Shown here: positions 5,085 through 55,945 of the stretch, one piece after another | Numbering within the stretch: position 1 is the first letter of the stretch | How the letters are laid out: each line of letters begins with the position of its first letter | Source of the DNA: Bacillota bacterium | GTDB lineage: Bacteria; Bacillota; Clostridia; TANB77; UBA1234 | Direction: 5' to 3' | DNA length: 64,000 bases | Assembly: GCA_016280725.1 (NCBI GenBank) | Contig: JAEEHF010000085.1 | Coordinates: 1-64,000 of the forward strand | The notes under the pieces: generated by a model | Seen by the model: the letters and a program-made list of their open reading frames with translations, nothing else | The model's database searches: none | What the model was told of the DNA's origin: nothing | Position numbers and translations under genes: made by a program

Positions 5085-6302
5085 TTATGTCCGAATAAAT
5101 TTTAATGCATTAAAATTACGTTTAGATTTAAGAGCTAACAATATAGCATTGTCTATTGATGATTTGGATACAAACCGATAATAGTACAAATTTTTGTAAG
5201 TAGTATTTATTCTATCTATTCTTCCAGATGCTTGCTCCATAATTTTATATGAATAATTTAACGAATAAAATACGATAGCATTCGTAAGAACACAATTCCA
5301 ACCTTCCGAACCCGAATTATACTGAACTAAATATATCCAACGATCACTATCTGGAATCGAATCATGCCGATGTCCGTTTCTTTCAGCTATGACCGTACCT
5401 TTAGGAAGTAGTTCAGAATCATTAAGAGATCGTAATATTTCTAATTCACAATTTAAATTATAAAACACGATCAATCGTTTATGTTGTTTAACTAATTTAA
5501 GCAATGCATCGATCCGACTATCATCAGTATTAACAATTTTTCGTAAAATATGACAACATTGTCCAGCATCTCTAATTGGTTCATTAGTAAATGGATTCCA
5601 TCTATTTTTGTATGCAACATTGTAAATATCTTTGTCGAATGAAACTTCTATGTCATTAACATAGCGAACTGTTTGTCGATTATCTTTCATAATTACCCGA
5701 ATACTATCTCTATATCGCAGTAATGTATTAGTTCCTAAATATTTAACAATTTTAGGATATTTTGCAAATCGATCATATACAGCATGCTTTTTTAAAAACT
5801 CTGTTCGATTTTTATAAAAACCATTTGCAACAAAGACTGGAATATAATCGGACCATGTATCTCCAGGAGTAGCACTTAATAAAATCCAATCATTTCTTTT
5901 TGTCAACTTCTGAAAAACTTTAACCCATGCTCCAGAACCAACTACTCGTTGTTCATCAAATATAAAAAATGCTCCAGATACACCAACATACTTTTTAATG
6001 TTATTCCATGAATCTATAGTTACTGAAATAGAAGCTACACTGCACGATGAATCGGTTGATAAACCAAATCTAGCGCATTCATTATTCCAATCCAACGTAT
6101 CTCTTTTAAAGGCTGTGGTGATAATATACAACGACCTAGGTCGTAGAGGAGTAGATCGTTTTGAATAATCACCACAACATACTTTATTATAAAAATATGC
6201 TAATGCTGTAATAGACTTACCAGAGCCGACCCCACCAACTAAGATGGAGCCGGTTTTTAGTTTCTCTACAGCCTCTTCTTGCTCAGGTCGTAGCTGTATC
6301 AT
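5085..6302 (-). CDS. Superfamily 2 DNA helicase/translocase
   Basis: Encodes 405 residues with all main SF2 signatures: Walker A GGVGSGKS (about 23-30), a DEQR Walker B in place of DEAD/DEAH, motif III LSATPGDTW, and in the second lobe SGSEGWN with the arginine-finger motif QASGRIDR. It probably unwinds or remodels DNA during replication or recombination, next to nuclease, SSB and polymerase genes. AAGGG lies ahead of ATG. The terminator at 6350-6394 separates it from the SSB-like gene. Confidence 0.85.
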   Translation of the reverse strand: MIQLRPEQEEAVEKLKTGSILVGGVGSGKSITALAYFYNKVCCGDYSKRSTPLRPRSLYIITTAFKRDTLDWNNECARFGLSTDSSCSVASISVTIDSWNNIKKYVGVSGAFFIFDEQRVVGSGAWVKVFQKLTKRNDWILLSATPGDTWSDYIPVFVANGFYKNRTEFLKKHAVYDRFAKYPKIVKYLGTNTLLRYRDSIRVIMKDNRQTVRYVNDIEVSFDKDIYNVAYKNRWNPFTNEPIRDAGQCCHILRKIVNTDDSRIDALLKLVKQHKRLIVFYNLNCELEILRSLNDSELLPKGTVIAERNGHRHDSIPDSDRWIYLVQYNSGSEGWNCVLTNAIVFYSLNYSYKIMEQASGRIDRINTTYKNLYYYRFVSKSSIDNAILLALKSKRNFNALKFIRT

Positions 6303-6349
6303 AATACCCTTCTAAAGCTTCAGAATCAAATCTAAAGCCAGTAAATATC

Positions 6350-6394
6350 TTTTAGGGGTAGTTAAGCATAAAACACACCTAACTACCCCTAAAA
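6350..6394 (-). terminator. 15-bp stem terminator
   Basis: Fifteen bases at 6350-6364 are perfectly inverted at 6380-6394 with a 15-base loop. On the minus strand the stem is followed by GATATTT. It lies between the SSB-like gene and the helicase and probably ends or attenuates the replicase transcript. Confidence 0.7.
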
Positions 6395-6408
6395 TATCTT
6401 AAATCAGA

Positions 6409-6888
6409 TTATTCGTCCTCATCTTGATCTGGTACATCATAATACTTTGAAGCAAATGGATCTTCAACAACTGTAGCATAAATTGCTTGCAGATATGCAT
6501 TAACACCAGTATCACCATTTGGACGACGCCAACGATTAGGACGAATGACAATATCTATATTCTCATACTCATAATCGTCAAGCAAACCGATGTTTTGTTC
6601 ATTTAGCGATCGCTTAACATGCGAATTGATAAGCATAGCAATGGGAGCACGATACTTGTATCCTATATTGACCTTAATATAGCTAACTTGATCATATCCA
6701 TCACGAGGCTTAGTGGTTTTAACATTCATGCCATACTCAAGCGCTTGCTCAAGAGCTTCGCCCTCCAATATAACATTAAAGTTTCTCTCACCAGGATTAT
6801 TATATGGACCTGCTTCTCCCTTGAAATTGGTATAGAAAATAAACTTAGCATTGGGGATGTTAATGGTTGCAAAATTCTCTCGAGGCAT
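6409..6888 (-). CDS. Probable phage single-stranded DNA-binding protein
   Basis: Encodes 159 residues. Beta-rich sequence with the phage pattern NFKGEAGPYNNPGERNF, then YKYRAPIAMLI and a late block with VIRPNRW, ending in a very acidic tail (DVPDQDEDE). This pattern is common in gut phages beside replication genes and is usually taken as an SSB-type OB fold; the acidic tail fits an interaction tip. It lies 2 bases after the replicase stop with AAGGAG ahead of ATG. Inference rests on family resemblance plus position. Confidence 0.65.
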   Translation of the reverse strand: MPRENFATINIPNAKFIFYTNFKGEAGPYNNPGERNFNVILEGEALEQALEYGMNVKTTKPRDGYDQVSYIKVNIGYKYRAPIAMLINSHVKRSLNEQNIGLLDDYEYENIDIVIRPNRWRRPNGDTGVNAYLQAIYATVVEDPFASKYYDVPDQDEDE

Positions 6889-6890
6889 GT

Positions 6891-9800
6891 CTAATTCTCC
6901 TTAATCGATTTCAATAAAACCTCTGAAATATCAAAACCTATGTCACATAGGTCATGATCGTGTTGGAAGTGAGGACAATTATAACAATTATCTATAGTTA
7001 AATCGCCGCATGGCATACTCCATGGAATATCTTTATTGTCCTCGACAAACCAATAATAATCTCCAAACTTAGAGATATCTGCAATAGCATCGTCGACAAG
7101 ATTATCAAAATATGACTTATCAACAAATTGTTCTGTCTCAGTTCCTTTTACACTCTCTGCTTCAAAGAAACGATATCTTTTAGTTCCACTAGCATAAGAT
7201 AGTCGACCATCAGATTCAATGCGTTTAAGTTCTCCTCCACCATGACCACTTTGTATTGGACAGAAACATCCAGCACGTCCTATAAACACAGGCATACTTT
7301 CATCTGGACCAAGTCTTTCATTCATATCCAGATAAAATGCAGACTTAGTAGTCATAGTTATACAATAGTCCTCAAATTTTAGAGGTTCATGCGAGAATAT
7401 CTTTTTAAATACATATGGTTCTTGGAATTGTTTACCAGTTGCTGTCCACTTTCCAGGAGCTTGTGGAGATCTAACACTCTGTTTTCCAACAAACACAGCA
7501 TTATTAACCAAGCATATCTTCTCCCATTCGGCTTCTATTTCAAATGTATATCCATATTTTTGACCAAATTCATAAATAAAAGTTTCAATATCTGGTGTTG
7601 GATCAGCTACTTTTATAGAATCAGTTTTAATATGTACTACTGTAAAGCCTCTGCTTTCTACTTCATCTTGAAGAGTACGCATAAATAAAGCTCCACGAAG
7701 TGCTACAATATTATTTTTATTTCTACGATCCCTAAAAGGATTATCAAAAGTTGCTGATGTTAGACCGTATACTGAATTAATAGCAGTTTTCAAAGCATTT
7801 GACAAATCCTTAGCTTCATCTTTGTTTTTCAAATATCTTTTTAACTTGCCATTAAATAGTTTTCCAACAGATTCATAATCACCATGCTTAATAAACAAAC
7901 GAATATTTACAAGATCTTCGAAACGATCGGTATAATCTCCCAAATATCTTTCCATAATAATTGATCTAGGATGCATGGACGCAACATCATATGTTACACA
8001 ACGCTTATACATGCCAGGATTAGCATATACCCATCCGCCACGTCCGACATCATCCCCTCGATACATATTTTTGCCATTTTTATACTTATAGCCTGGAAAT
8101 TCTTCAGCAAGATCATACCAATTAAGTTTTGGTTTTTTCTCTTTGCCAAATATGATTCGAGTTGTCAAACTATTAGTAGAATCGTTAACAGTCATTCCGG
8201 CAATGTCAGCAAGAATTTCTCGAGCTCTAAAATCTCCGCTAAGATGATTAAAAACCGCTTCAGTAGATATGACATCATTGTCACAGTATTCAGCAACTAA
8301 ACCCCATTGGCTCTCATCAACTGGTTTATCCCATGGGAGACCTAGCTCTTGATGGTGTAGCCCAAGTTCAATTTCCCACTTTTTAAGGGATTTCTTATGT
8401 CCTGCTGATGCAAAATCATAAACATCAGTATATGACAAATTGTAAGCTTCACCAAATGTACTATGAACATTTTTGTCATTACTAATAATTCGTTGACTAA
8501 GTTGGTACAATTCTTCATTATTATAGCCAATATATCTAGCATACAAAATATGGTTATCATACCGCCTATTATTAAATCCAACGAGTTTAAATTTAAATAA
8601 GTCACCGATTTCTTCTGGAGTAGGATTAATCATTCGTACACAACTATCTGCTCCAGCATATTTCCAATTTACTAAAAATAGATTCGGAAATACCTCAACA
8701 TCGAAAAAGACCAAACGATCATCTGCATACCCGCCATCACCTGAAGAGCTTAATTCCTCAGATTTATATGGCATCTCACTAGCTATTCGCATGCAATATT
8801 CTGCTTGATGGGTGCTATTCATAGCAAATATCATAATAGCTTGTTTCATGTCTGATACATCATAAGACAAACCAGATTCTTTTGCTTCTACCAAAATATG
8901 ATTAATAAAATCAACACTTGGCTTAGTAGCACCAAATTCTTTTGATAAAGACCGTTTAATCAAATCTCGAAGCGCCCGCTCACTTTTAACCGCTTCATGA
9001 TTGATCACTTTCTTATTCTCCTTTCTTAATGGTAATCCACTTGATATCGTTCTTATAGGAATCTTATTACATTTGGTAAGTTGTCGTCTTAACGAACTTT
9101 TACCTTTAAAAACCTTAATCTCTATATCATCCGAATATATGGATCTAAGAAGATTTACATCACCACTATAAATATAATGGAGATGAAGACCAGCACCGCT
9201 TTTGCTAAACTCAGCATATGTTGGAGGCCAACAAGATGCTGCTTTTATGTTTAAACTTTCAGACTTTTCTCCAGTAATAGGATCTTTCAAATCAAAATCA
9301 ATAACGATATGATTCTCTGGCATAAGTACATAATGAAGGAAATGAGTGTTGAGCATCTTCAATGTACCGTTAACATTATCCCATTTTACAAAAGGCGTTC
9401 CTTGTTCATTAGCATATTGCGCTGGACAATCTCTGAGCTCATTATCTAATATGGACGATAAGCCAGCCTCATCTGTTAATTGTAACCATGGCGGTACATT
9501 CTCAGTATCTTCATCATCTACTATACGAATATCTTTTTTACCGTCAATCTTCCATGATAAAAACTCTCTATAATAATTATAGACATGTGTACCGTTAACT
9601 GTCGTATTTGGAATGAACTCTTTGAAATACTCTCTAAGCTCTTGTTTAAACTTATGTTTTGGCATCAAATATCTTAGTCCAGATTCAGTTGTAAATTCCT
9701 GAAACATAGCCCAAGCTCGTTTAAGAGTTACTCCGTTTTCTTCTTTAAAAGTAAAATATGACTCTTCTACAAAATTAAAGAAAATATCGGTACGTTCCAT

Positions 9801-10832
9801 CATATCAATCGATCGATATGCATCATAATAATGTATGCCTGCTTTTTTATACACATCTAAACAATGACATGCTATACCGCTCAACTCAAAGTGTATTTGA
9901 TTAACTAATTTAGAATAATATGAACTAGGAATCCTTGCACCGGATGGATTAATATCTATCAAACGCCTAATCATACCCGACTTAGCATCGGTTATTTGAA
10001 CTGGTTCATTTGTCGCAAGAAACAGCATAGCATTTATTTTTACATTGTATGCCGATTTATACAACTCTCTTACTGGAATAGTTTCATGAGAAATTATAGA
10101 ATTCAATCTTGTATTATTTTCTATCTTGCTCAAAATGCTATCATACTCTAAAGCAATTAACGGATTATCTTTGAATGGTGCTGTACTAAATTCTGATGAT
10201 TTACTTCCGATAGCTCTTGATTCAATTATCGTATAATATCCCTCAAATAACTTTGCAATAATATCAAGTATCGTTCCCTTACCAGAACCTGGAGCTCCAT
10301 ATAAAACAAAGAACTTGCTAATCTTTTTAGAATCTCCCGCAACTACTGAACCTATTGCCCACTCGATTTTATGTCTTTCATCTTCAGAATATAACGTGCC
10401 AACCAGTTCATCCCATGCTGAATAGTCACCAGGTTCCAAAGCATATGGAAGCTTTTTCGAAATATAGTCATCTCGATGTCGTGTTTGATTAGAGAATGTC
10501 AATTCATTGTCTAACTCATGATAATTGTCATACATATCTTTTGTGAACTTTTTATAATTAGACCATGAATGAGAGCCATAACTACTCATCCATTGAACCG
10601 ATATAATTCCGTCACATTGATTTTGCATTTCCAAATACTTTTTATTTAATTCTCTATCAACTATTCTTTGAACCATAGATTCATCAGTTGACCAAAAACC
10701 AGTCTCGTCATCATATACTGCATAAAACGAATGCCCTCGTGTCATAAGATCTTTGTGGTTACCGATTATAAAATCAGGATAGATTTCAAGTCCATTTTTA
10801 GTGTTTTTTGTCCTAATCTTGAAGAAATCCAT
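6891..10832 (-). CDS. Replicase fusion: SF3 helicase, AEP-type primase and B-family DNA polymerase
   Basis: Encodes 1313 residues. N-terminal third: Walker A GAPGSGKGT (179-187), then LIALEYDS and LFLATNEPVQI, matching D5/SF3 phage helicases. Middle: IDFDLKD (Asp 512/514) with KSGAGLHLHY (His 550/552), the hDhD and sxH signatures of archaeo-eukaryotic primases. C-terminal half: exonuclease FFDVEVFP (Asp 711, Glu 713), NNRRYDNHIL and YCDNDV, then polymerase motif A TYDVASMHP (Asp 949), motif B KTAINSVYG (Lys 1015) and motif C IKTDS (Asp 1071). Motif C lacks the first Asp of the usual DTDS but keeps the second. The three activities usually sit on separate proteins, so this is a near-complete replisome in one chain. 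Start has AAAGGAGG upstream. Confidence 0.85.
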   Translation of the reverse strand: MDFFKIRTKNTKNGLEIYPDFIIGNHKDLMTRGHSFYAVYDDETGFWSTDESMVQRIVDRELNKKYLEMQNQCDGIISVQWMSSYGSHSWSNYKKFTKDMYDNYHELDNELTFSNQTRHRDDYISKKLPYALEPGDYSAWDELVGTLYSEDERHKIEWAIGSVVAGDSKKISKFFVLYGAPGSGKGTILDIIAKLFEGYYTIIESRAIGSKSSEFSTAPFKDNPLIALEYDSILSKIENNTRLNSIISHETIPVRELYKSAYNVKINAMLFLATNEPVQITDAKSGMIRRLIDINPSGARIPSSYYSKLVNQIHFELSGIACHCLDVYKKAGIHYYDAYRSIDMMERTDIFFNFVEESYFTFKEENGVTLKRAWAMFQEFTTESGLRYLMPKHKFKQELREYFKEFIPNTTVNGTHVYNYYREFLSWKIDGKKDIRIVDDEDTENVPPWLQLTDEAGLSSILDNELRDCPAQYANEQGTPFVKWDNVNGTLKMLNTHFLHYVLMPENHIVIDFDLKDPITGEKSESLNIKAASCWPPTYAEFSKSGAGLHLHYIYSGDVNLLRSIYSDDIEIKVFKGKSSLRRQLTKCNKIPIRTISSGLPLRKENKKVINHEAVKSERALRDLIKRSLSKEFGATKPSVDFINHILVEAKESGLSYDVSDMKQAIMIFAMNSTHQAEYCMRIASEMPYKSEELSSSGDGGYADDRLVFFDVEVFPNLFLVNWKYAGADSCVRMINPTPEEIGDLFKFKLVGFNNRRYDNHILYARYIGYNNEELYQLSQRIISNDKNVHSTFGEAYNLSYTDVYDFASAGHKKSLKKWEIELGLHHQELGLPWDKPVDESQWGLVAEYCDNDVISTEAVFNHLSGDFRAREILADIAGMTVNDSTNSLTTRIIFGKEKKPKLNWYDLAEEFPGYKYKNGKNMYRGDDVGRGGWVYANPGMYKRCVTYDVASMHPRSIIMERYLGDYTDRFEDLVNIRLFIKHGDYESVGKLFNGKLKRYLKNKDEAKDLSNALKTAINSVYGLTSATFDNPFRDRRNKNNIVALRGALFMRTLQDEVESRGFTVVHIKTDSIKVADPTPDIETFIYEFGQKYGYTFEIEAEWEKICLVNNAVFVGKQSVRSPQAPGKWTATGKQFQEPYVFKKIFSHEPLKFEDYCITMTTKSAFYLDMNERLGPDESMPVFIGRAGCFCPIQSGHGGGELKRIESDGRLSYASGTKRYRFFEAESVKGTETEQFVDKSYFDNLVDDAIADISKFGDYYWFVEDNKDIPWSMPCGDLTIDNCYNCPHFQHDHDLCDIGFDISEVLLKSIKEN

Positions 10833-17292: not shown

Positions 17293-17497
17293 TATTATCA
17301 TAATATAAATTAAGAAAAAAGTTTTTTATTACGATAGAACTTGTATATCGCTTAGCATTACCTCTGGGTATTTTTAAAAATGGCATTGATTTATTTGCAT
17401 TTCTAACACTTGATTGAATTTTCTTTTCTATATAGTAATTTGATATAATGTCTTTAGGCGTTGAATAATTATGTTTGATATAAGGATTATCATGCAT
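17273..17497 (-). CDS. Small basic protein, unknown function
   Basis: Encodes 74 residues. Rich in Asn, Lys, Tyr and Ile, with no recognised motif. ATG overlaps the stop of the tagged kinase/acetyltransferase gene (TAATG) with AGGA upstream, so it is translationally coupled. Its end runs through the promoter at 17267-17292. Confidence 0.6.
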   Translation of the reverse strand: MHDNPYIKHNYSTPKDIISNYYIEKKIQSSVRNANKSMPFLKIPRGNAKRYTSSIVIKNFFLNLYYDNIRKNYP

Positions 17498-18819
17498 TAC
17501 ACTATTCCTAATTTTGTTTTAGCATGTTCTTTAGCATAAATATAATTGCTACCTAATGGATCTTTTATAAAACCATTCTTTTCCGCAATTCGTATTGACC
17601 CAATATTTTGTTTATCAACTGGCCACCACATTACGTCGTAAATATTCTGATTATCAAACCAATCGACAAGATTTTTAGTTAAACCAGTACCTATACCGCG
17701 ACCTTTTTTAGTAACTCCAATACCAATTTCAACACCATTTGTTCCGTCAATGTTTTGTTCTTTTGGTATTTTTTCAGCGATAACGAAACCGTGATCGCTT
17801 ACTGAATTAAAAGCAGTATTATTTTTATAATATTCTGGACTGCTAAAATAATCTTGTGGTTCATCAGAAATATCAGGATCGATCAATCTTCTATCAGATA
17901 AAGGCATAGATTTATACAATTCATTTATTTTAGAATATGTTTTATCTGAAATATTAGTAGCTGTAGGTTTTAATGGATACGGAGGACCGTTTTGAACGCC
18001 CCATTGTTGACCCTTAATACCATGATGAGCTAAATATGTTCTATTTCCAAATAGAGTACTATGTGATAGATTGTTAATCTTATCTATATTTTTATTGATG
18101 TAATTATACCAGTTTTTTCTTTTAGGATCGAGTACTGTTTTAGCAGTATCTATTAATTTATCGCCATCACGTCTTGATGCTCGTATACTATTACGAATAT
18201 AATTGTTTTTCATAGTGATGGTCGGCTTATCTTTAAAATAATTTTTATCTGGAAACATCGTGTCGTCACCCATTTGGGCGCCTTCTATAATTACACGTTT
18301 TCCACGATTATAGCAATCTCTTCCATAAGATTCTACATGATTGCCAATATCATCGATAGCTTTCCATCTTTCTTTTTTATCAATAGTTGCATCTCGAGCT
18401 TTGTCAATATCGACACCCTTATTTCGTAGAAAATGCTCAAAATCTTTATTGAAAGAAGGAGATTTATGCGCTTCTTTTTCTAAAAGAGTATCGAGATGAA
18501 TTATTGAATCATCATTAGATGCTAGACCTTTTGCAGTTGTAGATTTTCCAGATCCAGAAGTCCCTATAATATATAACACATTATGATTGGGGTCTTTACC
18601 CCATTTATCTAAATTTCTAGCTTTTGCTTTTTTCATATTTTGTTTAGCATAATGTATATAGCCTTCTTGCGTTAAACTTCCATCTGGATTCTGATAACGT
18701 CTTACACCCCATTTCTGTCCTTTAATTCCATGATGAGAAATATCTTCACTAGATTCAGGATCTATGGCTAAAATATCAGTAGCATCTCTAACAACGCGCC
18801 TACCGAACATCTGCATCAT
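17497..18819 (-). CDS. Double-tagged P-loop kinase / GNAT acetyltransferase fusion
   Basis: Encodes 440 residues. Order: tag HHGIKGQKWGVRRYQN at about 29-44; P-loop kinase domain starting IIGTSGSGKSTT (about 84-95) with HLDTLLE and VIIEGAQMG; a second tag HHGIKGQQWGVQNGPPYP at about 272; then a GNAT-like domain with RGIGTGLTKNLVDWF and IGSIRIAEKNGF. The tags resemble those on several late proteins here, so this may be a virion-associated effector modifying host molecules. Substrates are unknown. Its ATG overlaps the DUF4406-like gene upstream by 20 bases. Confidence 0.75.
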   Translation of the reverse strand: MMQMFGRRVVRDATDILAIDPESSEDISHHGIKGQKWGVRRYQNPDGSLTQEGYIHYAKQNMKKAKARNLDKWGKDPNHNVLYIIGTSGSGKSTTAKGLASNDDSIIHLDTLLEKEAHKSPSFNKDFEHFLRNKGVDIDKARDATIDKKERWKAIDDIGNHVESYGRDCYNRGKRVIIEGAQMGDDTMFPDKNYFKDKPTITMKNNYIRNSIRASRRDGDKLIDTAKTVLDPKRKNWYNYINKNIDKINNLSHSTLFGNRTYLAHHGIKGQQWGVQNGPPYPLKPTATNISDKTYSKINELYKSMPLSDRRLIDPDISDEPQDYFSSPEYYKNNTAFNSVSDHGFVIAEKIPKEQNIDGTNGVEIGIGVTKKGRGIGTGLTKNLVDWFDNQNIYDVMWWPVDKQNIGSIRIAEKNGFIKDPLGSNYIYAKEHAKTKLGIV

Positions 18820-22509: not shown

Positions 22510-22600
22510 ATATTATTCATCCTTAAACGAGTATTTTAGAAAATCACTAGCTCTAAAAATTGTCGACTACATGTTGAAAATAAATTCGAAATATAATAGG

Positions 22601-22673
22601 TGCCCTCGACAGGATTCGAACCTGCGACCTTAGGTTTAGAAGACCTCTGCTCTATCCACTGAGCTACGAGGGC
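22601..22673 (-). tRNA. tRNA-Arg (UCU)
   Basis: A 73-nt cloverleaf with acceptor GCCCTCG/CGAGGGC, D-arm GCTC..GAGC, anticodon loop CTTCTAA (anticodon TCT) and T-arm GCAGG TTCGAAT CCTGT. The 27-43 pair is mismatched. The discriminator A is followed by CC but not CCA. It reads AGA, a codon favoured in AT-rich genomes. Confidence 0.93.
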
Positions 22674-28024: not shown

Positions 28025-28073
28025 ACAACTCTTTCTCTTAGTGATGCATAATATATGATCAAATATCAATAGG

Positions 28074-28156
<83 letters not shown>

Positions 28157-28813: not shown

Positions 28814-28834
28814 TCCTTAATTAAATATCAATGG

Positions 28835-28907
28835 TGCGCCCTATGGGTCTCGAACCCATGACCTTGAGATTAAAAGTCTCCTGCTCTACCAACTGAGCTA
28901 AAGGCGC
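28835..28907 (-). tRNA. tRNA-Lys (UUU)
   Basis: A 73-nt cloverleaf: acceptor GCGCCTT/AGGGCGC, D-arm GCTC..GAGC, anticodon loop CTTTTAA (TTT), T-arm ATGGG TTCGAGA CCCAT. CCA not encoded. Decodes AAA/AAG. Confidence 0.95.
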
Positions 28908-31602: not shown

Positions 31603-31783
31603 TGTATAATGACTCCTTATATCGTATCCAGTCTTGTCGAAATGCCTCAATATCTTCGGGACTTCCTTCAATGATATAAATATCATCATCGAGCATATGA
31701 ATACAATTGTGTAATCCAACAAGGGATTTGAAGTATTCAAAATCAGGTATATCAGTTTTGAATATATATGTATTATCAATCAT
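31595..31783 (-). CDS. Hypothetical small protein
   Basis: Encodes 62 residues from ATG at 31783, overlapping the upstream stop. Acidic alpha/beta fragment with IYIIEGSPEDIEAFRQDWI. Not recognised. Confidence 0.65.
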   Translation of the reverse strand: MIDNTYIFKTDIPDFEYFKSLVGLHNCIHMLDDDIYIIEGSPEDIEAFRQDWIRYKESLYNG

Positions 31784-32597
31784 TAGCACTATCCTCTGCA
31801 GGTTTTAAAAGCTTCATTTTACGATTTCGCCTTTCTTTTGTTTTAGCACTACGATCCTCGGCATGCTTAAGTTGACTTTTGAATGCTGCTCGAGGATTTG
31901 GAAATCCTAGTGTTTCAAAATATTTACGAGATATGGCCATAGACAGGCCTATCTCTGGATTAAACACATCATTATCCATGCATTTACCAATCGTTTTTGT
32001 AGTGTCAGACCAAAATACTATTACGGCCGGATCATTAATAATAACATGAGTTATAACGGGAATGTTCTTGATCATTATCTCTCCATCGTTTATGGATTTT
32101 ACAATATTTCTAATAGTATCTTTAACATTAACTACTGATTCTGTTTTATTAAATACAACAGGATCACATTTCTCATTAGCTGTAAGTTGTTTGCATCCTA
32201 ACATTGATTCAAAATCCGATACGAACTTTCTAGTATAAACAGCAGTAATCATATTAATTATTCTTGGAGTAGCTGTTATAGCTTGACAATGATAAATATA
32301 TCTATTATCAAGACAACTCCATTCACAACACATATCAGATACTTTGAATATAAATACTTCAAGAATTCTAGTATTAGGATTTGGTCCAACCACTGCTATG
32401 TATATATCGCGATAATCACTTTCTGATAAAATTGGCGTATCCCAACTAATGTTGCATGACAATCTAAAACCGTCATGTTTTAAATCGACATTGGTTGGCT
32501 TATTAATAAAATCAATACCGCAATATGAACAATCTTTTTTATAATTACTAAGAATTGCAACTTCGTACGGTTGATCAAATGCTACTAATCTATTCAT
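31776..32597 (-). CDS. Conserved phage protein, unknown function
   Basis: Encodes 273 residues. An N-terminal domain with CSYCG and several Cys, then a C-terminal block VIVFWSDTTKTIGKCMDND followed by FNPEIGLSMAISRKYF. The second part matches a recurring phage pattern (a polar beta hairpin TKTxxKC.. then a xGLxMAIxKK helix) whose role I do not know. Ends in a basic tail. Overlaps both neighbours. Confidence 0.75.
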   Translation of the reverse strand: MNRLVAFDQPYEVAILSNYKKDCSYCGIDFINKPTNVDLKHDGFRLSCNISWDTPILSESDYRDIYIAVVGPNPNTRILEVFIFKVSDMCCEWSCLDNRYIYHCQAITATPRIINMITAVYTRKFVSDFESMLGCKQLTANEKCDPVVFNKTESVVNVKDTIRNIVKSINDGEIMIKNIPVITHVIINDPAVIVFWSDTTKTIGKCMDNDVFNPEIGLSMAISRKYFETLGFPNPRAAFKSQLKHAEDRSAKTKERRNRKMKLLKPAEDSAND

Positions 32598-32844: not shown

Positions 32845-33060
32845 CTAATATTTAGGTGTACGTTTAGCAACTATTCTAACCGTTTCTGATTCAGTATGTT
32901 TTGTTTTAGATGCATTATGTTTTTTATTTCGTTTTTTAGAACAACAATCAGAATATCCATTACGATATCCTAGCATCCAAAATAACAATAATAGAGCAAT
33001 TTCCAATAAACATAGTAATATAATAATTATTACTTGAAATGTAGCTGAGTTTAAAAACAT
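32845..33060 (-). CDS. Small single-helix membrane protein
   Basis: Encodes 71 residues. Membrane helix at about 8-30 (FQVIIIILLCLLEIALLLLF), then a basic cytoplasmic-type tail with YSDCCSKKRNKKH. Function unknown. Confidence 0.7.
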   Translation of the reverse strand: MFLNSATFQVIIIILLCLLEIALLLLFWMLGYRNGYSDCCSKKRNKKHNASKTKHTESETVRIVAKRTPKY

Positions 33061-33064
33061 TATC

Positions 33065-33796
33065 CTATTCCTCTATCATAGTTTCACTAAATAAAACACC
33101 GAGTATAAATCCGCCTAACCAATTTCCAATAGTAGTAAATACCAATTGAATAAATGCTTGCAATATACTAATTTTACCAGCAAGTATACCAAATGGAAGA
33201 AAAAACATATTAGCTATACTATGCTCAAACCCACAAGCAACGAAAGCGGTTATAGGAAAAAGAACAGCTATAAAACGTTCAATTTTAGAACATGTCGGTT
33301 CTATATACACACTTATCCATACCGCTAAACATACTAAAATGTTGCACGCTAATCCTTTTGCAAAAATAACCAATTCAGATTGATTGCATTTAGAAACAGC
33401 TATATCGGTTAGAGTAGAATAATCAAAATTACATGCTACTACTAATGCGAACATAGCCATTGCTCCAATAAAATTAGAAATATAATTTGTTAATAATAAT
33501 TTAGTTGGTGAATATGCTTTATTTGTTGCATCTGTTTCTCCACTAAGCAATCCTCTAATCATGCAGTTTCCAGTGAATAATTCAGCTCCAGTCACAACTA
33601 CAAAAAATAGTCCAGAAGAAAACATAATACCACATACTATTTTATTACATCCTTCTTCCTTGGCTATACTCATAAGTAATGCGCCAATTGATATAAACAT
33701 ACCGGCCAATATACCAAGGTTTATAGATTGATTCAAATGTAATTTATTTTTTAGTATCTTTACCGCAATAATAGCTTTTTTATTTTCGTCTAACAT
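33065..33796 (-). CDS. Formate/nitrite transporter (FNT) family channel
   Basis: Encodes 243 residues. Six hydrophobic segments with the FNT hallmarks: GAELFTGNCM (conserved Thr of the slit loop), TNYISNFIGA, FAKGLACNILVCLAVWIS and GFEHSIANMFFLPFG with the central His. These channels pass formate, nitrite or hydrosulfide across the inner membrane. Length is near the family norm and key residues are intact. A complete anion channel in a phage is unusual and would act as an auxiliary metabolic gene. AAGGA precedes ATG; flanked by small membrane and ADP-ribose genes. Confidence 0.88.
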   Translation of the reverse strand: MLDENKKAIIAVKILKNKLHLNQSINLGILAGMFISIGALLMSIAKEEGCNKIVCGIMFSSGLFFVVVTGAELFTGNCMIRGLLSGETDATNKAYSPTKLLLTNYISNFIGAMAMFALVVACNFDYSTLTDIAVSKCNQSELVIFAKGLACNILVCLAVWISVYIEPTCSKIERFIAVLFPITAFVACGFEHSIANMFFLPFGILAGKISILQAFIQLVFTTIGNWLGGFILGVLFSETMIEE

Positions 33797-33814: not shown

Positions 33815-34525
33815 TTATAGTAGTTTAAATATTAAGTCGGTCCCATCTGCTTTTTTAAGATTTATGTCAAAAACTTGTTCGGACCAATCAGTTGGTATAG
33901 AATCAACGCCATAATATAATCCAGCAAAAGTACAAGCTAAACCAACAATGTCAGAATTAGTATCTTTAAGATTTGAAGCTTTTTCATAACAAGATACATA
34001 GTCCTCTGAAAATATAAAAGACCATAATGCAGCAAAGAAAATGTCTTTTTCTTGTGTACTACATATAACTTCTGATTCTAGAATGTCGAATTCTGGTAAA
34101 ATATTAAGAATATCAGTTTTATCAATTTTAAACCATAGAATATCATGAAGAAGATGTATAAATTCTACACAAAGAGACTGAATTTTTTCATCCTGATTCA
34201 TAACATTAACTATTTTTCGAATCGTGTCATCAAGTTCATGATGGTGTAACCCGAAAATATCCGCAAACGTTAAAGGTGAAATAGCATATAATATCGATCC
34301 GGTATTTTTGATTTCTGAAATACGATTACAAATATCATTAAGACATACATGCTCTTTTTCAAAAATGCTGTCCATTATTGCAGTCATAACGACAATATTA
34401 TCAATAGAATCGTTGGGTTTTTCATAAATGCAAACATCTTTTACTGGATCTATGAAATATCTAATTTTGCCAACATATGCTCCGCAAAGCATTCCCTCAG
34501 ATGTACGTGCAACTTTTGTTTCCAC
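33815..34525 (-). CDS. ADP-ribosylglycohydrolase-like protein (DraG family)
   Basis: Encodes 236 residues with a GTG start behind GGGG. The C-terminus ASNLKDTNSDIVGLACTFAG then LYYGVDSIPTDW closely follows the DraG/ARH pattern (NLGGDTDTxAAIxGAxAGAxYG..iPxxW), but the metal-binding DTD reads NSD. The N-terminal SEGMLCGAYVGK and VMTAIMDS correspond to the first metal site, also altered. It may reverse or bind ADP-ribose on proteins, for instance to blunt host defence. Activity is uncertain because of the substitutions. Confidence 0.7.
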   Translation of the reverse strand: METKVARTSEGMLCGAYVGKIRYFIDPVKDVCIYEKPNDSIDNIVVMTAIMDSIFEKEHVCLNDICNRISEIKNTGSILYAISPLTFADIFGLHHHELDDTIRKIVNVMNQDEKIQSLCVEFIHLLHDILWFKIDKTDILNILPEFDILESEVICSTQEKDIFFAALWSFIFSEDYVSCYEKASNLKDTNSDIVGLACTFAGLYYGVDSIPTDWSEQVFDINLKKADGTDLIFKLL

Positions 34526-34550: not shown

Positions 34551-34579
34551 GAGAAGGACTCGTTTTATGAATCCTTCTC
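34551..34579 (-). terminator. Strong intrinsic terminator
   Basis: GAGAAGGATTC/GAGTCCTTCTC stem followed by TTTTTTATT on the minus strand, 8 bases beyond the stop codon at 34587. It closes a one-gene unit. Confidence 0.85.
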
Positions 34580-35153: not shown

Positions 35154-35369
35154 TTAATCATTTAATAAATTAATCAGTGCTGATATGTCGGAATCCATTT
35201 GACCTAACGTATCGCTGAGTGATACTGCAATATCAACTGTTTCATCGCTATCATACACACTGGATACACCTAAATCAAGTAAACCTATAAGTTTATGAAT
35301 TTGGGGTTCTAGTTGTACAATTCTTTTCATATTTTGTTTGATAATGTTTTTCTTATCAGATTTAGTCAT
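35154..35369 (-). CDS. Small helical protein
   Basis: Encodes 71 residues from ATG at 35369; longer frames only run through the end of thyX. Two helices with a short acidic loop. Start overlaps the thyX stop (ATGACTAA). Not recognised. Confidence 0.65.
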   Translation of the reverse strand: MTKSDKKNIIKQNMKRIVQLEPQIHKLIGLLDLGVSSVYDSDETVDIAVSLSDTLGQMDSDISALINLLND

Positions 35370-36018
35370 ATACAACTTCATTTCCATTCCAATACGGAAT
35401 ATCATCAAATATACATGGTAATTCTTTTTTAAGATGTTTAAGAACCGGAATCATAGCCTCGCGCATTTGATAATGAGCTTCTTTAGAACAACGTAGTTTA
35501 AGAATATGCCGCCATTCTCGATAATTGGCGGTTATAATAAGTTCTGTTTTAACGTCATTCGTCAATGCATTTCGTGCAGTATCTGTACTGCATCCAAGTT
35601 TAAGTCGATTGAAATAATTTCGTTCAACATTTTCACATTCGCTAAGCCATTCTTCAAGCATAAAACCTTCAGGAATAGCAGAATCACGAATAAAAATAAC
35701 CTCTTTTCCAAATCTGTCTCGTTCATAGCAACAATATCGCGAACTTTCTTGATTTGGACTCATCATTCTATGGCGAACTAATTCATGAGATACTCCTCGA
35801 TTCGTAATAAATATAACCGAAAGAGATGAGTGCTCAAATGGTGACATGTGCGGATTATCTGGATTACGTTTCTTAAGTCGACTTACAAACTTACAACGCT
35901 CTTCATGAGTAGCAAGATCACCAGACTTATAACAAATCCTAGCAGCTCGAGTAATCCTACGAATATCCTCTTCTGGTTCGAAGTGATCGATTTCAAAACT
36001 TTGATCAATTACTTTCAT
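35362..36018 (-). CDS. thyX: FAD-dependent thymidylate synthase
   Basis: Encodes 218 residues. The ThyX signature is complete: ELVRHRMMSPNQESSRY (RHRxxSxxxxSxR), with SPFEHSSLSVIF for FAD/dUMP contacts and an ITANYREWRHILKLRCSKEA segment near the C-terminus. It makes dTMP from dUMP using methylene-tetrahydrofolate and NAD(P)H, supporting phage DNA synthesis. GGGAG precedes ATG. Nearby MazG-like and kinase genes fit nucleotide supply. Confidence 0.95.
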   Translation of the reverse strand: MKVIDQSFEIDHFEPEEDIRRITRAARICYKSGDLATHEERCKFVSRLKKRNPDNPHMSPFEHSSLSVIFITNRGVSHELVRHRMMSPNQESSRYCCYERDRFGKEVIFIRDSAIPEGFMLEEWLSECENVERNYFNRLKLGCSTDTARNALTNDVKTELIITANYREWRHILKLRCSKEAHYQMREAMIPVLKHLKKELPCIFDDIPYWNGNEVVYD

Positions 36019-39819: not shown

Positions 39820-40020
39820 TTACTTATCTACTCGCTTGTACAAGACACCGTCAATTATTTTGAACGACGGGTTGTCATTTGATGATGATTGCTCTATGAA
39901 CTCGGATGCCAGCTCTTTCTTACCAGCGTCCTTTCCGAACTCATATATAGCACCTCCTACCAAATATACAACATAACATGCCGTTACTACATTGATAGTC
40001 TTGACAATTACTCTGAGCAT
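39820..40020 (-). CDS. Small single-helix membrane protein
   Basis: Encodes 66 residues from ATG at 40020; the frame to 40035 begins in its own ribosome site AAAGGAG. Membrane helix at about 7-30 (KTINVVTACYVVYLVGGAIY), then a Lys/Glu-rich tail. One-gene unit with its own promoter and terminator, and higher G+C than its neighbours. Confidence 0.8.
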   Translation of the reverse strand: MLRVIVKTINVVTACYVVYLVGGAIYEFGKDAGKKELASEFIEQSSSNDNPSFKIIDGVLYKRVDK

Positions 40021-46431: not shown

Positions 46432-46881
46432 TTAGTCTTCTTTTATATAATATTGATTAGTCATAACGTCATACACTAGATGTTTTTTATCAAGATTCAT
46501 TTTATCCATCCACTTTTTAACATTTTCAACATCTTTTTTATTTCTTTTTACCCACTTATCCATTCTAGACCGTTCTTGCTCTAATAATCCTTTTGGTACT
46601 TGCTTTTTATAATTTTTTGGATCTAATCGTTTAAATTCAGATAATCGATCAACGTTTCTAGCATGCCCTTTAGCAAAATAGTCAGACACCATTTCATTTT
46701 TACTTGCTTTATTTAGTTTTTTCAAGTATCTTTTTTCGCCATCAGGGGTCAAACTTCCATCCGAATTTTGATAACGTCTTACACCCCAATGCATTCCTTT
46801 AATTCCATGATGAGCTAATGAATTTTTGTAGTTTGGCTGAATATCAGCATGAAGATAATCATAGAACGAAGGATAATTCAC
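46432..46881 (-). CDS. HHGIKGMHWG-tagged protein
   Basis: Encodes 149 residues with a GTG start behind GGGGGG. N-terminus MNYPSFYDYLHADIQPNYKN, then tag AHHGIKGMHWGVRRYQN at about 24-40 and DGSLTPDG. The rest is basic, Lys-rich and helical. Its first 40 residues are almost the same as in the 46953 protein, while the rest differs, so tags are joined to different payloads. Function unknown; packaging or ejection is a hypothesis. Confidence 0.75.
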   Translation of the reverse strand: MNYPSFYDYLHADIQPNYKNSLAHHGIKGMHWGVRRYQNSDGSLTPDGEKRYLKKLNKASKNEMVSDYFAKGHARNVDRLSEFKRLDPKNYKKQVPKGLLEQERSRMDKWVKRNKKDVENVKKWMDKMNLDKKHLVYDVMTNQYYIKED

Positions 46882-46952: not shown

Positions 46953-47447
46953 TTATTGATTATACTTTACTTCAAACTCATCAACTGGTCTAAACAACGA
47001 ACCACTACGCTGCATAGCTTTAAATGCAGATTCCCCATATTTATTTTTTGCATAAGCTCGGCTATTAGCAGCAGCTTTACGAATCAGCGCATCGTCTTTT
47101 CCAGTAACTCGTCCTTTTCGATATGCTGCATTCCATGCTTCTCCGCGAACATCATAGCCATTATTTCCGAGACGAACTGTTTTTCTAACATGCTCTGGAA
47201 GTTGGTTCATGAAGTGATTCTCCATGTCTTTAGCCATCTTCTTCACATATCGTTTACGTCCTTTATCGTTTAGAGTACCATCATCATTGTGATATCGACG
47301 TTTTCCGGCAGGCGTAAGATGCCCACTAGCATCTTCAAAACGTCTTACACCCCAATGCATTCCTTTAATACCATGGTGGGCTAATGAATCTTTATAACTC
47401 GGCTGAATATCAGCATGAAGAGAGTCGCAGAATGAAGGATAATTCAT
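46953..47447 (-). CDS. HHGIKGMHWG-tagged protein
   Basis: Encodes 164 residues. MNYPSFCDSLHADIQPSYKD, tag AHHGIKGMHWGVRRFED at about 24-40, followed by two HLTPAGKRRY / TLNDKGRKRY units typical of the tag family. The C-terminal part is basic and helical. Tandem partner of the 46432 gene. AAGGAGGGG before ATG. Confidence 0.75.
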   Translation of the reverse strand: MNYPSFCDSLHADIQPSYKDSLAHHGIKGMHWGVRRFEDASGHLTPAGKRRYHNDDGTLNDKGRKRYVKKMAKDMENHFMNQLPEHVRKTVRLGNNGYDVRGEAWNAAYRKGRVTGKDDALIRKAAANSRAYAKNKYGESAFKAMQRSGSLFRPVDEFEVKYNQ

Positions 47448-49547: not shown

Positions 49548-51170
49548 TTATTTTTTACGTTTTTTATGAATATTTTTACCGCGTTCGATAAGATCATTAG
49601 TATAATCTATAATTTCTGGTGTAACACTTGATAATGCTGTGATAGCATCTTTATTTTTGACAGCGTTCATGGCTTGCATATAACGTTTGCCAGCGTCAAT
49701 CGCTGTTCTGGCATTTCCTATCGCATTACCCCATGTGCGCACATCATCAGTATCCACATCTTGCATGACTTTATTACGAACGCTGTTTTTAACTTTTTCG
49801 CTAGCAGCTTGTTTAGCTTTAGAAGTTTTGTCACGAATAGTATCGCTTGGTTTTTTACTTCCATTTTGATTTGCTGATGAAGTATTCGGTATTTCAGGAT
49901 TATTAGTATTCTTAGAAGATTTTCCCGTTCCCATTTTATACAATGCGTAGCCTGTACCAGCAGCAAGTGCAGCACCAGCTGCTACTTTACCAGCTTTTCT
50001 AAGAGCTTGTTGCTTTTTAGTAAGACCCTTTTTAGTAGCACCTTTTGGATTTACTTGTTTATAACGTCTAGCTTCCATAGTATAATATGGTACTTTTTTA
50101 GCACTACCAAGTGTTAAAGCACCACCTGCAACTAAAGCAGCAGGGACGAGAGCGCGCGTCTTAGGATTTTGATATAAGGCGTATGCACCAGCCGCAGTTG
50201 CAGCAGCTTTAGCAGCAGTTCCTACCATAGCCCAATTGCGACGATTTTTAGATACTATTTGTCTACCAATATTAATTTCTCGTTGACTCAAATCAGCACG
50301 TTTACGATCAGAACGAGTTTGAACACGTCTAATTCGTTTATCAAGTCGTTCATTTTTCTCAGGATCTCTGTTCTTTTCCTGAGCTCGTTGGAGGCGATTT
50401 ATCTTGTAATATTTTCGTGCATCTTGAACAGCATATCGACGTTTTCCAGCAGCATTAAGAGTACCATCTGGATTCTGATAACGTCTTACACCCCATTTCA
50501 TTCCTTTGATACCATGATGCATTAATGAAGCAGTATAGGATGGCTTTATATCAAAATATAATTCCGAATGTTTAACACGTTTGTTTCTTTGCTTAGTATT
50601 TTTTCTAACTACATGTTTTCCATAGGCATTTTGTATACCCGCAGAAACTTGACCTATTTTTCGTCCAGTAGCTTTACCAATAGCTCCGCCTGCTTTTCCA
50701 CCTAAATCTATAGCAATATCATTCATATCATTATCAAGTATATAATCGTCATTTATATATTTATTAAAATCTTTAGCTTTGTTTGATATCTTCTTCGTGT
50801 TTACTTTTTTAGCGATCTTTTTCGCATTATCATGAACTCCGGTTTTTCTTGAAACTTTTTCAGCAAAATCGCGAGGTTTTTTAGTAGCTTCATAAGTTTT
50901 AGCTCTTGCTTTTGCAGTAGATTTAGTTATAGCATCACTACTCTTACTCGCAACTCTATCTCTATTATTATATAAAAATGAACCAGAAATAGACCCAATA
51001 ACTTTTCCTATTGCTTCTCCACGACGTTCGTGAGAAGATATAATACGTTGTCGTCCTTCAGCAGTTAAAGACCCATCCGAATTCTGATAACGTCTTACAC
51101 CCCATTTCTGTCCTTTAATACCATGGTGAGATAAATATAAATCGTCTCGGTATGAAGGTAGGTACTCCAT
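49548..51170 (-). CDS. Double-tagged large basic protein
   Basis: Encodes 540 residues. First tag SHHGIKGQKWGVRRYQN at about 13-29 behind MEYLPSYRDDLYL. A basic Ala/Lys region follows, with a Gly-zipper-like stretch IAIDLGGKAGGAIGKATG. Second tag MHHGIKGMKWGVRRYQN near 218 behind ELYFDIKPSYTASL, then an Ala/Gly-rich hydrophobic stretch (AAKAAATAAGAYALY, ALVAGGALTLG, AAGAALAAGTGYALY) and a Lys-rich end. It looks like two tagged proteins fused. Small-residue hydrophobic helices suggest membrane insertion or virion packing. AGGAGG before ATG. Confidence 0.75.
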   Translation of the reverse strand: MEYLPSYRDDLYLSHHGIKGQKWGVRRYQNSDGSLTAEGRQRIISSHERRGEAIGKVIGSISGSFLYNNRDRVASKSSDAITKSTAKARAKTYEATKKPRDFAEKVSRKTGVHDNAKKIAKKVNTKKISNKAKDFNKYINDDYILDNDMNDIAIDLGGKAGGAIGKATGRKIGQVSAGIQNAYGKHVVRKNTKQRNKRVKHSELYFDIKPSYTASLMHHGIKGMKWGVRRYQNPDGTLNAAGKRRYAVQDARKYYKINRLQRAQEKNRDPEKNERLDKRIRRVQTRSDRKRADLSQREINIGRQIVSKNRRNWAMVGTAAKAAATAAGAYALYQNPKTRALVPAALVAGGALTLGSAKKVPYYTMEARRYKQVNPKGATKKGLTKKQQALRKAGKVAAGAALAAGTGYALYKMGTGKSSKNTNNPEIPNTSSANQNGSKKPSDTIRDKTSKAKQAASEKVKNSVRNKVMQDVDTDDVRTWGNAIGNARTAIDAGKRYMQAMNAVKNKDAITALSSVTPEIIDYTNDLIERGKNIHKKRKK

Positions 51171-53899: not shown

Positions 53900-55945
53900 C
53901 TATTTAGTAATCAAGCCCTTATTAATAGCATCCTGTAAGGCCTTAACGGATTCACGACCAAAATATCCATCTACTTCTAATGTATAGCCAAGACTGTTAA
54001 GATACGTCTGGAATTTCCTAGAAGTATCGGGGCCCCAGTATCCATCTACACCAGATCCGACTTTTCTTTGAATTGCCTTGACTAATTCTGATCCACCAGA
54101 TCCATACTCTACATTAGACATACCCCAATGATAATCCTTACTATCGGGATCTTGACCACTAATGATCCCATCTTCAGTAGTTCCAAATATATGCTGAAGG
54201 TCTATAATGGTATTCCATCCGCCAATACCGTCAACATCCAACTTTCCACCATCACGATTATTCTTTGGAGTAGTATCTACAGAAGGTATAATTCGTCCAT
54301 CGTAAGGAATATAATCAGGTCTTAGCACATATGCTACATTACCCATCTGTCGATATTTTTCTTGAACAGCATTACCGACATTGCCTTCAATTGTAGTAAA
54401 ACCGTAACCGTCAAATGAACCAGTTGCAAAACCTATATGATCAGTTGCATTATCCCAGTTCCAGTTGAATATAATAACATCACCATACTGAACATCGTAA
54501 ATATCATCAATGGCGTATTTACGAGCACCACCGTTCAAAGCGATGTCGGTATTCTGAGTTGGGAATCCATCCATCTCAACTCCACCAAAATATAAACAAT
54601 AGCTAGCAAACATGCAGCACCAGAATATTTCATTAGATGGACCAGCTAACCAATCCTCTCCAGTCAACTCAGCAAGCCATCGTCCAAATAAACTGCCAGG
54701 TTCGGGATCGTCTGGAGCATAATATCCAAGATACTTATAAGCAACTGCTATAACATCTTCCGCTCGTCCTGTAACATTTGGTATTGGCTCAGGCTCTGAA
54801 TCTTTTTCTGGTATCCCATTCCAACCAGTAATATCAACAGGATTATTAGGATCATCAAGCCATATACGAATTGCTTCAAGACGCTTGCCACGTCCTGTTG
54901 TGCCGCATATTTCACCTTCCCCAACAGGTTCGGTCCATCCATAACTTTCTATATGACCCTGATACCTAAGTTTAAGGCCAGTAGTATTTCCAGTTGTAAC
55001 TATTTTAATTGCTTCAAGACGCAGTCCTTGCCCTGTTGTTCCACAAATATCATCGGTTTTGACATCAGTATAGTCTTTCCAACCAATGTTTTGAATATGT
55101 GTGGATACATTTAAACCAGCAATTGTTGAAGGAAGTTTAAATCTTAGAGCTTCCATACGGGTTGAATATCCAGCAGTTCCAGCTGCTTGACCATCTTTTA
55201 CCCAATCCATCCAACCAGTATTTTGACAATGAGCTTGATATGAAAAATTGCTTTCTCGTAAAATATCGCCGGGATTCTGAACTGGATTTGAACGAATAAT
55301 TGGTTCTGGCTCAACTATACCATTAATTTTTGATGGATAATCTATTCGACAAAAATTAAAATCAGTATAATTTCCGCCAACATCATCGTATGCTACATCA
55401 CCAGTAAACGGATCCATGCATCCTTTTTGCCACATACCAATATCGCCGACACCTGATGGCCAATTAGGTCCCCAACAAGCAATCCAATCAGCGTACTTTA
55501 ATAATCGATCCGGATTCATACTGTTGAGCCATGCACTTTTTCCAGTATATAATCCACTAAACTTATCAATATCATTTAGTTTGTCGCAAAAAGCCTCGAT
55601 AACATTAGTTAATGCATTAGATCCTATACTAAGCTGATAACCATCTTCAACATCCATATAACATGGTAAATCAAAGAATTTATCACCTATAAGATCAGCA
55701 AAGTGCTCAGCATCTTTTATAGCTTCATATTCAGATGTAACAGTTGTGTAATAATAAAAACCTATATGAATACCAGCATTTACTGCATCATTATAATGAG
55801 TTTCAAGCCATGAGTCTCTATAACGACCACCCTCATTACCACCAGCTTTTATTATAACACCCCATAAACCATGGCGAGATTTCCAGTATTCGAAATCCAC
55901 AGATTGATCATACTTAGAAATATCAATAAGCAGTTTATCTTCCAT
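53900..55945 (-). CDS. Multidomain endolysin: GH25, ChW repeats, CHAP, peptidoglycan binding
   Basis: Encodes 681 residues. Residues 1-205: GH25 muramidase with DISKYDQSVDFEYW and the catalytic-type YMDVEDG (Asp 98, Glu 100). About 225-375: three ChW-type repeats (NTGWMDWVKDGQAAGTAG, NIGWKDY..CGTTGQGLRLEAI, SYGWTE..CGTTGRGKRLEAI), typical of clostridial cell walls. About 395-550: CHAP-type amidase with FWCCMFASYC (Cys 443) and DHIGFATG. About 620-681: PGRP/PG_binding_1-type repeat (VDGYWGPDTSRKFQTYLNSL). A two-catalytic-domain lysin is unusually elaborate; it may also be virion-bound. AAAGGA before ATG. Confidence 0.92.
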   Translation of the reverse strand: MEDKLLIDISKYDQSVDFEYWKSRHGLWGVIIKAGGNEGGRYRDSWLETHYNDAVNAGIHIGFYYYTTVTSEYEAIKDAEHFADLIGDKFFDLPCYMDVEDGYQLSIGSNALTNVIEAFCDKLNDIDKFSGLYTGKSAWLNSMNPDRLLKYADWIACWGPNWPSGVGDIGMWQKGCMDPFTGDVAYDDVGGNYTDFNFCRIDYPSKINGIVEPEPIIRSNPVQNPGDILRESNFSYQAHCQNTGWMDWVKDGQAAGTAGYSTRMEALRFKLPSTIAGLNVSTHIQNIGWKDYTDVKTDDICGTTGQGLRLEAIKIVTTGNTTGLKLRYQGHIESYGWTEPVGEGEICGTTGRGKRLEAIRIWLDDPNNPVDITGWNGIPEKDSEPEPIPNVTGRAEDVIAVAYKYLGYYAPDDPEPGSLFGRWLAELTGEDWLAGPSNEIFWCCMFASYCLYFGGVEMDGFPTQNTDIALNGGARKYAIDDIYDVQYGDVIIFNWNWDNATDHIGFATGSFDGYGFTTIEGNVGNAVQEKYRQMGNVAYVLRPDYIPYDGRIIPSVDTTPKNNRDGGKLDVDGIGGWNTIIDLQHIFGTTEDGIISGQDPDSKDYHWGMSNVEYGSGGSELVKAIQRKVGSGVDGYWGPDTSRKFQTYLNSLGYTLEVDGYFGRESVKALQDAINKGLITK

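Follow-up and report, generated by a model that had tools for sequence, protein, structure and literature searches.

A gene carried by a tailed phage encodes a protein of 243 amino acids, here called P0001, that is almost certainly a channel of the FNT (formate/nitrite) family. The gene lies on the minus strand at positions 33065 to 33796 of the window, by which we mean the whole 64,000-nucleotide stretch of DNA that was analyzed. Taken alone, it is a new FNT member in an unusual place; the main point of interest is the association of FNT genes with nrdD and nrdG, the genes of class III ribonucleotide reductase (RNR), in other phages. We propose, with a probability of about 45%, that P0001 is a working anion channel, an accessory single-gene gain, that imports formate for nucleotide synthesis. 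Within this proposal we infer expression, transport, substrate, direction, and benefit alike, and the suggested role of the window FNT is read from the nrdDG-linked FNTs of other phages.

A complete FNT gene in a tailed-phage genome

The open reading frame at 33065 to 33796 is uninterrupted and begins with ATG, shortly upstream of which lies a purine-rich AAGGA. A plus-strand reading of the same positions was rejected because it contains many stops. The Pfam profile PF01226 (Form_Nir_trans) matched residues 8 to 235 over profile positions 5 to 236 of 240 (E value, 3e-49; 168 bits versus a cutoff of 34.6), and a nearly end-to-end match so far above the cutoff indicates that the frame is complete and did not arise by chance. 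The slit threonine (ELFTGNC) and central histidine (GFEHSIANM) that an earlier note on this DNA had pointed out are indeed kept, as T75 and H192, which correspond to T91 and H209 of FocA. When P0001 was compared with E. coli FocA, 21 of 21 pore and loop positions were family typical, and the canonical pore comprises F59, L63, L73, F74, T75, N108, K136, N152, V155, K171, F185, H192, A195, N196, and N225. The constriction residues described for the family (F75, L79, L89, T91, V175, F202, H209, and A212) and its invariant residues (N121 and N262; all in 3KCU numbering) (PMC5525234) were all found in P0001.

An AlphaFold model of P0001, built on a 29-row alignment, had a mean pLDDT of 87.9 and a pTM of 0.85. 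Its helices (residues 21-47, 52-69/76-84, 97-121, 141-164, 171-187/193-205, and 211-241) form six membrane segments arranged as in FNTs, the omega and S loops interrupting TM2 and TM5. FocA was the top match to the model in the PDB, followed by HSC and LciA, with TM scores of about 0.8. The reading frame, the PF01226 match, the pore residues, and the model thus bear out the earlier claim of a complete channel gene.

The substrate is a separate matter. As far as sequence can tell, the pore residues of P0001 cannot distinguish a formate channel from a hydrosulfide, nitrite, or bicarbonate channel. The main rival of formate import is that P0001 carries another small monovalent anion (hydrosulfide, nitrite, bicarbonate, acetate, or lactate) for detoxification or for carbon or nitrogen supply. 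We regard this as possible but rather doubtful. It agrees with the residues at the checked positions, which are the same as those of HSC and NirC, with the bicarbonate channel LciA being the best match by sequence among solved structures, and with scores below every curated NCBIfam subfamily cutoff (FocA, 115.7 versus 290.1; NirC, 78.7 versus 293; fnt, 149 versus 232), so that no substrate-specific assignment is passed. However, no nitrite or sulfur gene was seen adjoining the window FNT, and the neighborhoods of other phage FNTs indicate a formate-using NrdD.

The window comprises bases 1 to 64000 of an 89,820-base contig, C117, from a 2.2-Mb bin of 146 contigs with 7.3% contamination. C117 carries genes for a terminase, portal, protease/capsid, tape measure, and tail fibers, together with three on the minus strand: an endolysin (53900 to 55945; GH25 and ChW repeats), a 1,313-aa primase/DNA polymerase (6891 to 10832; phrog_4210), and a 932-aa large polymerase (1325 to 4123; phrog_4291), the endolysin and the large polymerase being phage hallmarks. 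Nearly all of its genes lie on a single strand. C117 is one tailed-phage genome of 89.8 kb, and the structural, replication, and lysis genes that it shares with the FNT gene confirm that the channel is phage encoded. Flanked by phage genes in a verified phage genome, the FNT qualifies as an auxiliary metabolic gene. The window also holds phage tRNA genes for Arg(TCT) (22599-22673), Leu(TAA) (28072-28156), and Lys(TTT) (28832-28907). A short motif, HHGIKGMHWGVRRYQNPDGTLT (DUF7211), occurs seven times across six proteins of this phage and resembles a shared tag or docking motif; its carriers are encoded at window positions 17497-18819, 46432-46881, 46953-47447, and 49548-51170 (two copies) and at C117 positions 84919-85443 and 85450-86874.

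Relatives of the phage were found with the primase/DNA polymerase as the query. Two independent IMG/VR phages, G323 (80 kb) and G325 (82 kb), have a primase-polymerase 80% shared with C117 and are broadly collinear with it, and collinearity of the whole contig with two independent virus records speaks against chimerism, which the earlier note had named as a way for its claim to fall. A DNA-level phage search with positions 40000 to 64000 gave no match, and the neighboring gene at 31776 to 32597 had no relative in IMG/VR. The FNT was present in none of the 24 relatives searched (G323, G325, and 22 more, some of them fragments).

The insertion site can be read directly from these relatives. Eighteen nucleotides upstream of the FNT gene lies a gene for a 236-aa protein (33815 to 34525, minus strand) with a weak C-terminal ADP-ribosylglycohydrolase match, below the Pfam cutoff, and this gene is conserved at the same place in both G323 and G325. 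Downstream, a gene for a 71-aa single-span membrane protein (32845 to 33060, minus strand) starts 4 nt past the FNT stop and is followed by a conserved flank, the DUF3310 phage protein (32590 to 32835, minus strand; PF11753). G325 has the ADP-ribosylglycohydrolase-like gene, then a small membrane open reading frame, and then DUF3310; the window FNT sits between the first two of these. At the corresponding position in G323 and G325, small membrane frames like that at 32845 to 33060 are seen by eye, with no BLAST match, so the FNT alone is extra here. Its position between genes that are adjacent in relatives indicates a single-gene gain here, or a loss elsewhere, rather than a chimera. A hairpin resembling an intrinsic terminator (11 pairs and a T run; 34551 to 34579, minus strand) immediately precedes the run of genes to which the FNT belongs; terminator-like sites are no more common than in shuffled sequence (2 versus 1.7).

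The source bin is fragmented and 7.3% contaminated, which might suggest that a bacterial gene was joined to a phage contig during binning or assembly. This is extremely improbable, because the genes within a few nucleotides on either side of the FNT have homologues that are adjacent in independent phages, a finding that already refutes a local join.

Phage FNT genes and their linkage to nrdD and nrdG

FNTs recur in phages of anaerobes. A pattern-based scan of the 2.9-million-contig IMG/VR collection yielded at least 39 FNT-bearing contigs, an undercount given the nature of the scan. Phage-collection matches in Enterococcus, Listeria, E. coli, and Salmonella records were left out of this count, since many of those records were short, unannotated, or bacterial and resembled host sequence. 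The earlier remark that FNT genes are not common phage cargo thus holds for their frequency but understates their recurrence, and a phage focA has been published (PMC8115048).

In 23 of the 39 contigs, nrdD and/or nrdG lay within about 2 kb of the FNT gene, and linkage persisted in 15 of 30 distinct sequences after copies were merged at 90% identity. Cellular FNT loci picked in the same way were linked to nrdD or nrdG in 3 of 80 cases, two of them Bacteroidales. With sequences treated as independent, the phage and cellular loci differed at a P value of 1.7e-7 (15/32 versus 3/80; Fisher test). The common phage order is nrdD-nrdG-FNT, with the last two genes overlapping or nearly so (L026, L030, L044, L047/49/50, and L048). 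In two Bacteroidales contigs (L089 and L098) the order is nrdD-FNT-nrdG, which suggests that the formate-RNR pairing exists in cells too.

The partner genes were named NrdD and NrdG by NCBIfam. All three phage NrdGs tested scored above the cutoff, as did several linked phage NrdDs with the E. coli NrdD model, and the readable linked NrdDs mostly have an E. coli-type MGCR finger loop and the radical glycine, L029 (CCR) being an exception. The nrdD of FNT phages often matches in separate pieces (L029, L030, L031, L032, L034, L035, L039, L041, and L053); in L035, the frame inserted between the pieces resembles a homing endonuclease. NrdD was encoded elsewhere in the genome in the human-gut phage phAss-1 and four further FNT phages, versus 0 of 11 ThyX-bearing control phages. 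None of the ThyX relatives had an FNT.

The linkage is not universal. In the host order, 3 of 19 FNT loci were linked to nrdDG and the other 16, with short FNTs, were not near these genes. In the reverse check, 5 of 80 phage nrdG loci had an FNT, indicating that the channel is accessory to the reductase.

A quick maximum-likelihood tree placed the short FNTs from phages and from the host order together (SH-aLRT, 93), in a group to which phAss-1, the bin's second FNT, and every nrdDG-linked phage copy belong. P0001 fell outside this clade; its branch is long and lies, without a resolved placement, close to L022, LciA, the HSC/NirC group, and an archaeal/Bacteroidota group. Its position outside the short-FNT clade indicates that FNTs entered phages on more than one occasion. 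P0001 is thus no member of the nrdDG-linked clade, either by its place in the tree or by its surroundings: neither nrdD nor nrdG was found when they were looked for in the 89.8 kb of C117, and the simplest RNR idea fails for this phage. Since P0001 stands apart from that clade, its functional analogy with the short FNTs is one that we infer.

The long branch also bears on whether the gene is a recently gained passenger of no lasting benefit. Such a history would fit the lack of the gene in every one of the 24 relatives searched, fragments among them, and the divergence of P0001, for which a search for a close donor gave a best identity of about 40%. Every pore residue has nevertheless been retained on that branch, which is contrary to neutral drift; moreover, the gene fits tightly between its neighbors, has its own ribosome-binding site, and belongs to a family that recurs in many unrelated phages. 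We therefore consider a passenger gene quite unlikely.

Formate metabolism and class III reductases of the putative host

The host of C117 was assigned by binning alone (bin contamination, 7.3%), to a genus of small-genome anaerobes. Pyruvate-formate lyase (PFL-like protein) was found in none of four genomes of this genus, whereas formate-tetrahydrofolate ligase (FTHFS) was found in all four. FNTs of the genus were confined to C117 and a second phage-like contig, C109, with no chromosomal FNT found. The FNT on C109 (an 8.9-kb contig; 6178-6795, 205 aa) is of the short form, lies beside a band-7-like protein, and has KTNHC in place of GFEHS in its S loop, with the histidine kept. Across the host order, FNTs were present in 19 of 287 genomes, mostly in the short form; the idea that all of these are phage borne was rejected, as chromosomal genes surround several of them on long contigs. 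Canonical FNTs are common at the class level, the best being about 40% identical to P0001.

In mixed-acid fermentation, E. coli FocA exports formate or keeps it in balance. The earlier note had accordingly suggested that the phage channel adjusts host energy or pH balance in this way, and the adjacency of focA and pflB in E. coli and the intact pore of P0001 would agree with that role. The absence of PFL from the four host-genus genomes and the presence of a formate-consuming ligase argue against it, and nucleotide synthesis is the role suggested by the genes around other phage FNTs, so we judge a fermentation role unlikely. What stands of the earlier interpretation is an intact channel in a genuine phage; its account of the role is not supported.

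Use of formate by the host's own class III RNR was also considered and rejected. One contig of the bin (C68, 10685-12829) encodes a complete NrdD whose finger loop reads RSMCCR and whose C terminus is fused to a glutaredoxin/NrdH-like CTNC domain; the gene adjoins that of an NrdG2-like activase. The RSMCCR motif is of the redoxin-type NrdDh kind, and those NrdDh enzymes that have been tested did not use formate (PMC4493059). A second, chromosomal protein (C108, 86991-88985) resembles E. coli-type NrdD, carries Asp where the radical Cys of the finger loop would stand (PMGDR), and lacks the glycyl-radical C terminus; it is probably a dead or repurposed paralogue. In view of these features, the FTHFS/one-carbon route is preferred for the window phage. 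A further NrdD in the bin, with three in-frame TAG codons on a 4-kb contig (C30, 4-1719), probably comes from a TAG-recoding phage.

The window phage encodes a consumer of methylene-tetrahydrofolate (THF), the flavin-dependent thymidylate synthase ThyX (35362 to 36018, minus strand; PF02511), about 1.6 kb upstream of the FNT. With FTHFS in the host genus, PFL missing from it, and ThyX in the phage, a one-carbon/nucleotide route fits better than mixed-acid fermentation. In the sequence of events that we propose, a tailed phage of about 90 kb infecting a gut-type anaerobe acquired one accessory gene, the FNT. Once infection is under way, formate from outside would pass through the channel into a host whose own formate production is low. 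FTHFS would convert the imported formate to one-carbon units for purines, and methylene-THF and the phage ThyX would yield dTMP from the same source. In related phage systems, this formate supply may feed a formate-using class III RNR directly. Put more broadly and just as tentatively, formate channels in phages of strict anaerobes may be part of the anaerobic DNA-precursor machinery, with the short FNT supplying the reductant of class III RNR and the separately acquired canonical FNT of the window phage serving the same end in a PFL-less host. If this is true, the replication of phage DNA would be limited directly by formate, a currency in plentiful supply among anaerobic gut communities, and phages would be seen to drive nucleotide synthesis by importing a small metabolite. 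In gut phages, phAss-1 included, a membrane protein that now lacks annotation would become a testable component of a known enzyme system.

Comparison with known systems

Like the known members of the FNT family (FocA, FdhC, NirC, and HSC; PF01226), P0001 has the same fold, six segments, broken TM2 and TM5, and all constriction residues. It differs from them in being phage encoded, in its identity of at most about 40% to the cellular members found, and in passing no subfamily cutoff.

Phage genes for class III RNR (PMC3653736) likewise provide an anaerobic supply of deoxynucleoside triphosphates, through enzymes that in E. coli and T4 use formate. The nrdDG arrangements seen in that survey are without an FNT, and the nrdDG-FNT order of gut and rumen phages is not among them. 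Full-text literature searches, which cover few subscription journals or preprints, turned up no description of nrdDG and an FNT as a phage module.

The gut phage phAss-1 (OQ749652) shares the carriage of an FNT: its protein WIC39672.1 (89049-89729), annotated as a hypothetical protein, is a short FNT with NAD-salvage genes nearby, in a genome that also encodes NrdD. The paper on phAss-1 mentions neither formate nor nitrite and leaves the FNT unrecognized (PMC10607447). phAss-1 differs from the window phage in being a code-15 phage of another lineage.

A precedent for a phage FNT is the focA-nirA pair of a T4-like marine cyanophage (PMC8115048), in which, as in the window phage, an FNT is a metabolic gene of a tailed phage. 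The cyanophage focA is 86% identical to host focA and is located with a nitrite reductase gene, for nitrite assimilation. In contrast, the window phage probably infects an anaerobe, and its FNT is divergent, is free of nitrite genes, and stands in a context that points to nucleotide synthesis.
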